Part shown: piece by piece, positions 47,949-52,820 of the stretch
Position numbering within the stretch: position 1 is the first letter of the stretch
How the letters are laid out: each line of letters opens with the position of its first letter
Assembly: GCA_024958715.1 (NCBI GenBank)
Contig: JANWUS010000082.1
Coordinates: 1 to 52,820, forward strand
DNA: 52,820 nt
Source: Cyanobium sp. FGCU52
Lineage (GTDB): Bacteria; Cyanobacteriota; Cyanobacteriia; PCC-6307; Cyanobiaceae
Direction: 5' to 3'
Translations under genes and position numbers: made by a program
Notes under the pieces: generated by a model
What the model was told of the DNA's origin: nothing
The model's input: the letters and a program-made list of their open reading frames with translations, nothing else
Databases searched by the model: none

Positions 47949-48020
47949 GCGCGATTAGCTCAGCGGTAGAGCGCCTGCCTTACAAGCAGGATGTCGCTGG
48001 TTCGAACCCGGCATCGCGCA
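47949..48020 (+). tRNA. tRNA-Val (anticodon UAC)
   Basis: The 72-base cloverleaf has acceptor stem GCGCGAT/ATCGCGC with discriminator A, and the D arm GCTCAGCGGTAGAGC. The anticodon stem CCTGC/GCAGG carries loop CTTACAA (anticodon TAC), and the T arm is GCTGG-TTCGAAC-CCGGC with one G-T pair. CCA is not encoded. It is the left border of an accessory block and a plausible integration site. Confidence 0.97.
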
Positions 48021-48481
48021 TTTCTTAGATCCAAGTTGCAGCCCGGCTTTTAGCCCAAGTTGTTTTTCCGTTTCATGGGTCCGCTGGCCGCGATGGGCGC
48101 AGAATTGGGCGCATTTTTGCCCCGGCCGCCCCACGCTCACTTCGCTGCGACCTGGCGGCGCCACTGGCTGCAGGCGAATGAAGGGGCTAGGGCTTAGGGC
48201 TTGACCGCCCCAGCAGAGGCCGCCGTTGGGCTTGCCCTTTGCGAGCACCTAGGCGAGGGCGGGCCCATATGCGGCGAGGGCCACCAGCAGGACGGGAATC
48301 TGGCCAAGGGGTGCCTTCACAAAATGAGGAACTGCAACTAGGAAGGCTTGCAAGCGCATGCAACCTTGTATTGCCCAGTGGTCGCAACCACTACGGCAGG
48401 GGGTGCTTGCGGCACAGTCCAGTGCCTTAAGGTTGCCTGAAGTTCCCTTTTTGACCCCACAACGGCCCTACCGTTCCATCC
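48021..48481. other. Gene-free stretch between tRNA-Val and hicB
   Basis: No supported gene is seen in these ~460 bases. They contain the repeat CCAAGTTG (twice in 48031-48061), a 40-codon plus-strand ORF from an ATG at 48075 (MGPLAAMGAELGAFLP...) of unknown meaning, a direct repeat AGGGCTT near 48190-48202, and a perfect hairpin AGTGGT-CGCA-ACCACT at 48377-48392. This hairpin could be an operator upstream of hicBA. Confidence 0.4.
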
Positions 48482-48805
48482 ATGGCCACCAATCTCCCCA
48501 AGTACCTCCACTTCGTCGCCCGTCACGTCGACGGTCAGTGGGTTGTGGCGTGCCTGGACTTCGACCTGGCGGCCCAGGATGAGACGTTTGAGGCTGCCGA
48601 GCGTCGGCTGTTTGACCAGGTAGCCAGCTACGTGGAAGAAGCGATCACCTTGGACGGCGGGGTCCACGCAGAGCAGTTGCTGAGCCGCCGGGCTCCACTA
48701 GGGGATTGGATACTGTTCCACTTGGGCATGCTCCTTCAAAACCTCCACGCAGCCGGAGGCCTCCTGCGCGGTTATCAGGGGCCTTCCCCGTACCAGACCG
48801 CATAG
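48482..48805 (+). CDS. hicB: HicB-like antitoxin
   Basis: This 107-residue protein has the HicB partial RNase H-like fold start: LHFVARHVDGQWVVACLDF DL, followed by DETFEAAERRLFDQVASYVE EA. It lacks an obvious C-terminal ribbon-helix-helix or HTH. Antitoxins of this family bind and neutralise HicA and usually autorepress. The assignment rests mainly on the downstream hicA, 7 bases away, as in TA operons. Codon use and lower GC differ from the core genes to the left. Confidence 0.75.
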   Translation: MATNLPKYLHFVARHVDGQWVVACLDFDLAAQDETFEAAERRLFDQVASYVEEAITLDGGVHAEQLLSRRAPLGDWILFHLGMLLQNLHAAGGLLRGYQGPSPYQTA

Positions 48806-48812
48806 GAGCCTT

Positions 48813-49052
48813 GTGGGGCGCAAGTACCGGCCCCTCACCTGTAAGGAGGTGAAAAGGATTCTCCGCGCCCTTGGCTTTGAGTTTTGCCGCCAGAAAGGCT
48901 CCCACGAGCACTGGAAGGCTGAAGTAGATGGGAAGATGCGGCTCGTGACGGTGGACTGCCCCAAGCAGCCCTTTACCTCTCCCTTGCTGGATTCGATGGT
49001 GCGCCAGTCCGGCTACCCCATCAAGAGGTGGTACCAGCAGTTGGGCGAGTAG
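48813..49052 (+). CDS. hicA: HicA-family mRNA interferase toxin
   Basis: This 79-residue dsRBD-fold protein matches HicA: LTCKEVKRILRALGFEF, the catalytic histidine motif QKGSHEHWK (G-S-H), and a C-terminal DSMVRQSGYPIKRWYQQ helix. HicA cleaves mRNA and tmRNA in a ribosome-independent way. The start is GTG at 48813, immediately after hicB. Such modules are common on mobile DNA and can stabilise it. Confidence 0.85.
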   Translation: MGRKYRPLTCKEVKRILRALGFEFCRQKGSHEHWKAEVDGKMRLVTVDCPKQPFTSPLLDSMVRQSGYPIKRWYQQLGE

Positions 49053-49055
49053 GGC

Positions 49056-49413
49056 TCAGGTGACCTGTCCAGGAAGGCAGCAGGTACGCACGGCCGGCAG
49101 TGCCAGTTGCACAGGCTTGGCGATCTCGGCCATCGCCATCAGGGCCCGCAGCGCTGTGGCCAGATCACCACGGCGACGGGCTTGCTGCACCTCAGAAAAG
49201 CCGCCGCGCCAGGTCAACCAGCTGCTCATCCAGCAGGTCCGTAGCTGCAAGGCCACGTTCGACCGCTATGGCGGCGAGGTGCTCTGGCCAGTGGTGGGGA
49301 TTGACAAGCCGCGCCATGTCATGCATTCTTCGTTCACTGATATCCGACAGGCCCAAAGCGTGATGCCAAGGCTGTCTGGGTTGAGGTCCACGGTTGAGTG
49401 CGATGCCACGCCG
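49056..49413 (-). pseudogene. Frameshifted minus-strand gene of the accessory block
   Basis: From 49413 the minus frame reads protein-like sequence (PWHHALGLSDISERRMHD then LVNPHHWPEHLAAIAVERGL) for 73 residues to a stop at 49192-49194. The next frame (+1) then continues EVQQARRRGDLATALRALMA MAEIAKPVQL to a stop at 49056. Read as one chain it makes a helical ~115-residue protein. The switch point CTT-TTC-TGA is one base from continuity. No start codon is clear at the upstream end. I do not recognise it. A small phage or plasmid DNA-binding protein is a guess. A programmed frameshift is possible but less likely than mutation. The interval 49414-49534 shows nothing else. Confidence 0.45.
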
Positions 49414-49534
49414 TCAGGTCTTCTGAGAATCCGCCCTGAGTGATTCAGCGCTGATTGAGGGAGCTTGTCACTTCAGGAGTGATTCCTGGCGTGAGGTCTG
49501 ATTTTCGATTCAATCAATTTCAGCCTCATCAACA

Positions 49535-51654: not shown

Positions 51655-51657
51655 ACG

Positions 51658-52425
51658 ATGCGGGGATCCTGGCTCTTCACCGGAGAAGACAGCGCCAGCG
51701 CACGCCGCTACAAGCGGATCGAGCTGCGCAGCGTCCGGCACTTGATTCAGCAGCAGCAGCAGACGATCGACCTGCCTGATGGCCCGACCGTTGCGCTCAG
51801 GTGGCAGGCCCACACGGGTGGCACCTTGGGCCCCAAGAGCAGCGCGGCAGCCAACCAGAGGCAACGGCAGGGACGATCGGCGCTACCGGCCCCGCTGCTT
51901 GACCGAGGGCAGTCCGTGGCCTGGCGCTGCTACTTCCGCTGCCCGCGCTGCGATCGGTCCTGCCGGATCCTGTTCAACCCGCTGTGGCACTGGCGAGCGT
52001 GGGGCGTGTCTGAGGAAACCATCTCCGGGGCGTGGTGGTGCCAGCCCTGCGGGAAGTACCGCTGGCCATCAAGCCGGTGGACCGGAACCAGCAGCAGCAC
52101 CCGACGTCGCCCACCGTCGCATTACTACCAGCGGCACCAGCACGCCGCCGACCGCTGCTTTGATCTCTTGGCTGAACCTGCCTGGTTGACGACAGACCGA
52201 TGGATGGCTCTTCACCGACTCAAGAATGCTCACATGCTGATCGCCATGGCAGCAGGCTGCGCCGCCTGGCCTGGTATCAGCAGCGGCATCAGCGCTGAAC
52301 AGATCACAGAGGCTCACCGCACCATCGAGGCCTGCAAGTGGGCGACGCGGCAAAGCAACTGGGCGAGGCGCGGGAAGCCGCGGCCAGGGCCAGAGGGAAG
52401 GGCGAAGGTGCGGAAGCCCCGCTGA
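51658..52425 (+). CDS. Zinc-ribbon-like hypothetical protein of the element
   Basis: This 255-residue basic protein has two CxxC pairs about 30 residues apart (FRCPRCDRSCRILF and WWCQPCGKYRW), which could form a zinc ribbon and suggest nucleic-acid binding. N-terminally there is a Gln-rich turn (LIQQQQQTIDL). The C-terminus is charged and disordered. I do not recognise the family. The ATG is 3 bases after the ATPase stop, so co-translation is likely. Confidence 0.6.
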   Translation: MRGSWLFTGEDSASARRYKRIELRSVRHLIQQQQQTIDLPDGPTVALRWQAHTGGTLGPKSSAAANQRQRQGRSALPAPLLDRGQSVAWRCYFRCPRCDRSCRILFNPLWHWRAWGVSEETISGAWWCQPCGKYRWPSSRWTGTSSSTRRRPPSHYYQRHQHAADRCFDLLAEPAWLTTDRWMALHRLKNAHMLIAMAAGCAAWPGISSGISAEQITEAHRTIEACKWATRQSNWARRGKPRPGPEGRAKVRKPR

Positions 52426-52547
52426 CTCCGCACCTGTCCGATGAGGGAACCATCCCTGGTGTCTGGATCTTCTCTGCTGGCGCGCCTGGACGAAGACGAT
52501 CCGACCCTGTGATGGTTCCACGCTCAGCCCTTGAATCTCAGAGCTGG

Positions 52548-52566
52548 GAATCCCGTTCCGGGATTC
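52548..52566. terminator. Perfect hairpin at the right end of the block
   Basis: GAATCCCG (52548-52555) and CGGGATTC (52559-52566) form a perfect 8-base stem with a TTC loop. No T-run is present on either side. It sits between the plus-strand zinc-ribbon gene and a minus-strand reading frame that stops at 52568, as a bidirectional terminator would. Confidence 0.4.
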
Positions 52567-52567
52567 A

Positions 52568-52784
52568 TCACACCCTGTCGAGCCCCAGCAGCAGCACCGG
52601 CGCGAAGATCGCCTCGCTGGCCCTGGAGGGTGGCGTGGGAGGCCTCGGCGGCACCTGCTGGCTGTAGATCACCGTGTTGGCCCTCAGGCGCCAGGACCCT
52701 GCTGTGGATGACGCCGGCCGCGGCCACCAGCACCGGATCGATGCCGAGCAGCAGGACCAGGGCGCCCCTAGGAGCCTGTCGCAC
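52568..52784 (-). pseudogene. Possible frameshifted small membrane protein
   Basis: Minus-strand frames GALVLLLGIDPVLVAAAGVI HSRVLAPE (to ~52690) and NTVIYSQQVPPRPPTPPSRA SEAIFAPVLLLGLDRV (to the stop at 52568) would join by one base. The result would be ~65 residues with one hydrophobic helix and a Pro-rich tail. GC-rich codon use is like the core genome rather than the island. It may mark the return to chromosomal sequence. I do not recognise it, and chance is possible. Confidence 0.25.
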
Positions 52785-52820
52785 ATACCCCCCATAACCA
52801 CCTTCTCCACAGACGCCCGT

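Follow-up and report, generated by a model that had tools for sequence, protein, structure and literature searches.

A putative integrative element in the tRNA-Val(TAC) gene of Cyanobium sp. FGCU52, with relatives at several tRNA genes of picocyanobacteria

Tycheposons are known from Prochlorococcus, where they were reportedly described by Hackl and colleagues (in Cell, in 2023). They are defined by a deep-branching tycheposon tyrosine recombinase, and they have a tRNA target and picocyanobacterial hosts; some are satellites, others carry cargo. They are named in two further papers (PMC10872708 and PMC11389934), and tRNA-Met is given in the former as one of seven tycheposon tRNA targets. The PICMI satellites of Vibrionaceae, according to PMC10803314, comprise an integrase, the small helix-turn-helix (HTH) protein AlpA and a replication protein, and a helper packages their concatemers. 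An integrase element of picocyanobacteria situated at tRNA-Phe/tRNA-Cys is presented in PMC10187409, and in PMC6157547 an integrase is attributed to S-LBS1, a freshwater relative of cyanosiphophage S-CBS3. Here we analyse an element that begins at a tRNA-Val(TAC) gene of Cyanobium sp. FGCU52, in a stretch of 52,820 nucleotides (contig JANWUS010000082.1) called the window, which makes up the entire contig C82; the draft genome comprises 87 contigs and 3.48 Mb. The element very probably belongs to a picocyanobacterial family of integrative mobile elements and lies in the 3' half of tRNA-Val(TAC), with one end on C82 and the other on contig C35. On C82 it encodes a HicBA toxin-antitoxin (TA) pair, an excisionase-like protein (XIS), a helicase (REP) and a zinc-ribbon-like protein (ZnR), and on C35 a tyrosine recombinase. 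Attachment (att) repeats, an integrase with its catalytic residues, end repeats common to both contigs and variable occupancy of the site are all seen in the sequence.

Tycheposons are the nearest known kind, and by description the element appears tycheposon-like or satellite-like. It resembles them in target, recombinase and hosts, and REP has relatives at 40-48% identity in small low-GC genomes, probably of Prochlorococcus. Unlike them, it resides in a high-GC genome of 3.5 Mb, and the cargo seen consists of HicBA and genes of unknown function, with no nutrient genes. With PICMI it shares the three-gene logic of integrase, HTH excisionase or regulator and replication protein; it has a tRNA-Val site and an AAA_25 helicase, whereas PICMI lie beside fis and have a primase (DUF3987/DUF5906 in the PICMI model). 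The PICMI combination of int, alpA, primase and fis site is not present in our element. The element of PMC10187409, compared by description, is similar in its picocyanobacterial hosts, divergent tyrosine integrase and variable island adjoining a tRNA; it differs in using other tRNAs and in often lying beside a small serine recombinase, none of which was recognised here. The cyanosiphophages S-CBS3 and S-CBS1 have a homologous RepA-like helicase, but they are phages of 30-35 kb with structural modules, and the integrase found here matches no phage record. Among the papers listed on picocyanobacterial satellites, islands, integrases and tRNA-Val, none was seen to concern this element, which would extend tycheposon- or satellite-type elements to a high-GC picocyanobacterial genus.

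The left end is marked by the tRNA-Val(TAC) gene (47949..48020, + strand, detected by ARAGORN), the presumed integration target, which is still complete and identical to that of the nearest relative, genome G150. A search of the own genome with this tRNA gave one near-identical partial copy, on C35 (2526-2573; 48 bp, 98%, E 4.4e-17), covering the tRNA from position 26 to one base beyond its end. The repeated 48 bp form the attL core in the window (47974..48021, +) and attR on C35; the single mismatch between them is in the anticodon, TAC at the window and TGC on C35. Beside the partial copy, to its left, lies a gene for a tyrosine recombinase (C35:1089-2336, - strand) that matches PHROG 1 (5.5e-13), its family profile matching XerC-like recombinase (2.5e-11). 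Residues R246, K266, R353, H379 and Y388, which we take to be the catalytic residues of a tyrosine recombinase, are invariant among the 20 aligned sequences (own included), and Y350 occupies a position where His is usual. A preliminary description, made from the window, had proposed an integrative element and had seen neither an integrase nor a second tRNA end. The latter statement is correct for the window and incorrect for the genome, both being on C35, and the proposal itself is borne out by the presence in one genome of the recombinase and of a direct repeat of the tRNA-Val 3' end. The change of gene content that it placed after the tRNA (TA module, frameshifted gene, excisionase-like protein, RepA-like ATPase, zinc-ribbon-like protein) was found again, as was the lower GC: G+C is 0.75 at 45-48 kb, before the tRNA, and 0.59-0.63 from the tRNA on. 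On C35 it is 0.50-0.66 left of the tRNA copy and 0.68-0.70 right of it, where genes for TerB, NUDIX and GGDEF proteins follow (the last two named from sequence).

Both contigs end in repeated DNA, each in a different multi-copy repeat. C82 stops at 52820 inside a multi-copy repeat, probably an insertion sequence (IS), whose end closes the contig (52768..52820); these last ~53 bp are also found at the ends of C42, C84, C69 and, at 83%, C7, and no transposase was read there. The first ~58 bp of C35 recur at the ends of C22, C81, C66, C44 and, at 90%, C71. The C35 repeat also occurs inside C34, where it runs into an open reading frame (ORF) with a transposase domain (DUF772, 2.3e-6); C35 therefore breaks in an IS, and C82 probably does so too. 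Since the breaks fall in multi-copy repeats, the middle of the element is unread. Joining the contigs via the repeats was given up, no contig being common to the two lists of repeat ends. We nevertheless infer that the unread middle joins C82 and C35 as one element, because of repeats shared by the ends and of two matches to G150. Tandem TGGGCGCAGAAT-type units, 12 bp apart, are present in both ends, at 48094 and 48106 in the window (two TGGGCGCA... units, 48093..48117, +) and at 2391 and 2403 on C35 (C35:2391-2414), that is ~75 bp inside the left end and ~110-135 bp inside the right end. They are putative arm-type sites of the integrase, for which a presence in both ends would be expected. 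The ends have an exact match of 16 bp (no match longer than 15 bp arose in 2000 first-order random pairs), and the 11-mer TGGGCGCAGAA is confined to them among the window, C35 and C37. The repeat region of C35 also matches the arm region of a sister element in G150 (84% over 37 bp). Finally, the sequence right of attR matches G150 over 86 bp (90%), on the contig that carries the G150 tRNA-Val, adjoining TerB and NUDIX.

The tRNA-Val site was then compared within the genus: 42 genomes were searched, 41 matched the query region and loci were fetched for 34, own included. Partial tRNA-Val copies are present in 15 of the 34 (16 copies, two of them in G040); for the 42 genomes the count is at least 15, G299 showing a further partial copy in the search table only. 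Nine of the 15 have the intact tRNA and the partial copy on one contig, the copy lying 5-45 kb downstream; the own genome is not among these nine. Matching starts at tRNA position 26-29 in 13 of the 16 copies, and the right halves agree with the acceptor stem of their own host (observed in G030 and G156), as expected of recombination inside the tRNA. Empty sites, in G118 and G134, run on into the sequence that lies after attR in G148 (97% over 1 kb) and in G107 (92% over 614 bp). Eight tRNA-Val elements have both ends on one contig; they measure 5.4-12.9 kb, with a G+C of 0.53-0.66 vs 0.67-0.75 in the flanks. tRNA-Val is a hot spot in the genus. Across strains the site is variable and related integrase-XIS-REP modules look mobile, in agreement with the mobility first suggested. 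In the ninth genome, G030 (L108-L110), the intact tRNA-Val and the partial copy are separated by 45 kb, one end of which holds an integrase and the opposite end XIS-like genes. The two partial copies of G040 (L112) are at 14337-14380 and 16416-16457 and probably represent stacked insertions at one tRNA.

The genes of the element belong to a recurrent module. REP (49855..51654, +) is a RecA-type AAA_25 helicase (48 bits, cut-off 27) with a C-terminal winged helix, presumably a replication protein. Among 299 genomes, own included, relatives with E <1e-40 were counted from the match table in 30; at 1e-5 there are matches in 64, many of them distant AAA_25 proteins. The best relatives are 46-48% identical and come from genomes of 1.7-1.8 Mb, at loci of 30-33% GC; these genomes are probably Prochlorococcus. 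An XIS-like gene lies upstream of REP on the same strand at 21 of the 24 REP loci counted, own included, and a family integrase within the fetched stretch at 16 of the 24, the own integrase on C35 falling outside these 16. This core of integrase, XIS and REP recurs at tRNA-Pro(TGG), -Ala(GGC), -Arg(TCT) and -Val(TAC). All 22 aligned REP members have AAA_25, and few have a winged-helix family (HTH_27 in 5); the REP profile matches the LexA DNA-binding domain (6.4e-6) and, weakly, plasmid RepA 1g8y (0.0023). In the phage collection REP has matches in S-CBS3 and S-CBS1 only, two records each: 36% identity to S-CBS3 gp45 ("putative hexameric replicative helicase RepA") and 37.5% to S-CBS1 gp41, over 54-57% of the length. 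This common RepA points to candidate helpers that can be tested. No relative was found in the genome contig collection with REP or with the integrase. The viral contigs gave none with the REP alignment, two distant relatives with the single REP sequence and two with the integrase alignment. The third member of the core, XIS (49535..49774, +), is an HTH excisionase-like protein with homologues beside the G038 integrase (63% identical) and in G150 (83%).

The satellite traits observed are those of relatives. A gene for a terminase small subunit accompanies integrase, XIS and REP in the complete 5.4-kb tRNA-Val element of G156 (2.8e-7), and the G040 tRNA-Val element has one as well (1.2e-8). Two tRNA-Pro elements (L175 and L168) encode HK97-type protease-capsid fusions (5e-105 and 2e-110). 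Seven other ORFs were scanned: two have no family, three are helicase-like, one is RNase E-like and one is of unknown function. The viral contig L192 has, in order, the 3' part of a capsid gene, a partial tRNA-Arg (45 bp, 87%), integrase, XIS, REP and the 5' part of the capsid gene (PHROG 617, 1.4e-29); the capsid gene lacks ~195 codons, and there is no overlap between the contig ends. On the other viral contig, L191, a gene for a terminase large subunit (4.6e-31) precedes 44 bp that match tRNA-Pro at 100%, and the integrase comes after these. Judged from gene order, both contigs would fit excised circles or concatemers with attP, or alternatively tandem insertions. In the proteins read of our element, Pfam and PHROG scans found no packaging or capsid gene, the middle being unread. 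The idea of a phage satellite or tycheposon, put forward in the preliminary description, is thus made plausible by relatives with terminase or capsid genes and receives no help from the genome itself as regards the PHROG 617 capsid.

G150, the nearest relative (83% over a query of 1689 bp), harbours the sister element at another tRNA. There, behind tRNA-Ala(GGC), an XIS 83% and a ZnR 67% identical to ours are found, ZnR next to XIS and REP, and similar arm repeats lie 72 bp after the tRNA. The REP is a different one (814 aa, 22% identity). Neither an integrase nor a second tRNA-Ala copy was found in the 32 kb fetched (19 kb downstream of the tRNA). The tRNA-Ala(GGC) of the own genome is 240 bp from a contig end, and this stretch, with neither arm sites nor integrase, is uninformative. 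Between the own integrase and that of a tRNA-Ala element in G040, whose attR was not found in 38 kb, identity is 54-55%. In a tree of 26 rows, the own integrase and two tRNA-Ala integrases form a clade (100/100), the closest pairing being with G040 (84/71) and Ala_G155 having a long branch. Because four tRNA-Val integrases join this clade in a wider group (93/92), the tree alone gives no direction of target change. A distant clade unites seven further tRNA-Val integrases with one tRNA-Arg integrase, and the tRNA-Val integrase of G107 is elsewhere in the tree. One tRNA-Val gene is used by several integrase lineages. Labels cluster by target, with 9 changes; a number as low was reached by 3 of 200 shuffles. 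In its element half, attR has the anticodon TGC, and the tRNA-Ala(TGC) of relatives reads CCTGCTTTGCAAGCAGG vs CCTGCCTTGCAAGCAGG here, thin evidence of one base.

From the match of G150 in arm sites, XIS and ZnR, the clade with tRNA-Ala integrases and the TGC anticodon of attR, a change of target with arm sites kept can tentatively be proposed. A modular satellite lineage might have switched between tRNA-Ala(GGC) and tRNA-Val(TAC), the likeliest direction being Ala to Val, with the helicase swapped between the sisters and S-CBS-like siphophages as helpers; we consider this scenario possible, with the balance tilted against it. If it were true, target choice would change in the core while arm sites stay, within a high-GC picocyanobacterial satellite group. 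The sister pair, at tRNA-Val here and tRNA-Ala in G150, would be a natural experiment in which the site changed and the arm sites and excisionase-like gene were kept.

The proposed functioning of the integrative element is as follows. The C35 tyrosine recombinase would recombine a core spanning the anticodon stem to the tRNA 3' end, which would keep an intact tRNA on the left and leave the partial copy on the right, the arm sites being inside both ends. XIS would favour excision, and replication of the excised circle would be the task of REP, perhaps together with ZnR. HicBA and a gene of C35, P7, are presumably cargo or maintenance genes. As relatives suggest, the element might travel as a satellite in the particles of a helper siphophage that packages it. 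This copy may be decaying, because it contains a broken gene and repeat ends, one of which is recognisable as an IS from the gene next to it.

Several observations weigh against an integrative element spanning both contigs. C82 and C35 are not joined by sequence, and the middle between them is unread; besides TGGGCGCAGAA, one other 11-bp word is common to the ends compared. The integrase remains under the Pfam cut-off (18.3 vs 27.1 bits), seven of its 20 aligned members match at 0.01, and it has no counterpart among the phage records. Family evidence for XIS is weak, both for MerR in Pfam (0.0032) and for excisionase in PHROG (0.04). The tRNA-Val of G150 has no att repeat, and 8.6 kb of other genes precede the post-attR sequence, so there is no direct view of the own empty site. 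The PHROG 617 capsid was not found in the own genome, where terminase families were not searched. A sharper form of the same explanation would be a strict phage satellite, with a packaging gene in the unread middle and with mobilisation by a helper siphovirus like S-CBS1 or S-CBS3, REP being shared with the gene pool of that helper. The terminase small subunits of G156 and G040, the protease-capsid fusions at tRNA-Pro, the terminase large subunit of L191 and the likeness of REP to the S-CBS3 and S-CBS1 proteins all speak for it. No packaging gene was found among the proteins read, nor the PHROG 617 capsid in the genome, and we judge its chances to be about even.

Could two different elements stand in tandem at one tRNA, HicBA-XIS-REP-ZnR on the left and P7-integrase on the right? 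The two successive partial tRNA copies of G040 provide a precedent, both contigs end in repeats, and the G150 sister shows no integrase in the 19 kb downstream of its tRNA. Similar arm repeats at both outer ends, and the match of the C35 repeat to the arm region of the XIS-ZnR element of G150, make this arrangement unlikely. A remnant of a prophage, or of a mobilisable plasmid or integrative and conjugative element, is less likely again: REP does occur in two siphophages, one weak plasmid match was obtained (Nostoc, 27% over a third) and G030 has its 45 kb between two tRNA-Val copies, but the proteins scanned with Pfam and PHROG include no structural, relaxase or conjugation gene (the gap being unread) and the eight elements of 5.4-12.9 kb are small for a phage. 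That these are ordinary chromosomal genes next to an accidental tRNA duplicate is hardly credible. XIS and ZnR do persist in the nearest relative, but there they adjoin a different tRNA; within the genus occupancy of the site varies, and the second tRNA copy lies beside an integrase.

The remaining genes of the left part start with a HicB-like antitoxin (48482..48805, +), whose only family match is PHROG 12841 of unknown function (1.3e-15) and whose role is deduced from the adjoining HicA toxin (48813..49052, +; Pfam HicA_toxin PF07927, 7.1e-9, above cut-off). A HicBA pair 58% (HicB-like) and 68% (HicA) identical to this one lies behind tRNA-Val in G126 (L106, 12005-12613), within an element of 7.5 kb that has a partial tRNA copy and in which no integrase was found. 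A broken, frameshifted ORF with overlapping frames follows (~49056..49409, -); its pieces, searched separately among the fetched loci, gave no convincing relative. ZnR (51658..52425, +) adjoins REP and has two CxxC pairs, recognised by eye. It matches nothing in Pfam and PHROG, nor in the phage collection up to E 1, and is present in three of the 299 genomes, own included. In the remainder of the element on C82 (52426..52767), 44 bp align with G150 directly after ZnR. A PADLOC search with REP, ZnR, XIS, HicB-like, HicA, integrase and P7 gave nothing beyond a match of XIS to mad1 (0.003), which is weak and was judged a chance HTH likeness.

P7, of unknown function, is encoded left of the integrase (C35, L006:83-1069). 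P7 proteins (L006:83-1069, L104, L112, L114) have a common N-terminal domain of ~65 residues and very different C-terminal parts. This N-terminal domain was matched in 37 of the 299 genomes, in most cases with no integrase at <=1.5 kb. As a marker of the element P7 was rejected as not specific, an integrase at <=1.5 kb being present in only 2 of the 30 loci given (own and G128); in G040 and G302, the integrase lies elsewhere within the tRNA-Val element. The own genome contains further integrases of the same family: at tRNA-Lys(TTT) on C80 (L241, a weak match), on C53 (L238, no tRNA in the stretch), beside tRNA-Gly(CCC) on C5 (L235) and beside tRNA-Arg(TCT) on C47 (L236). Another is on C32 (L237), in a stretch that also holds a partial tRNA-Pro(TGG) copy and XIS- and REP-like genes.

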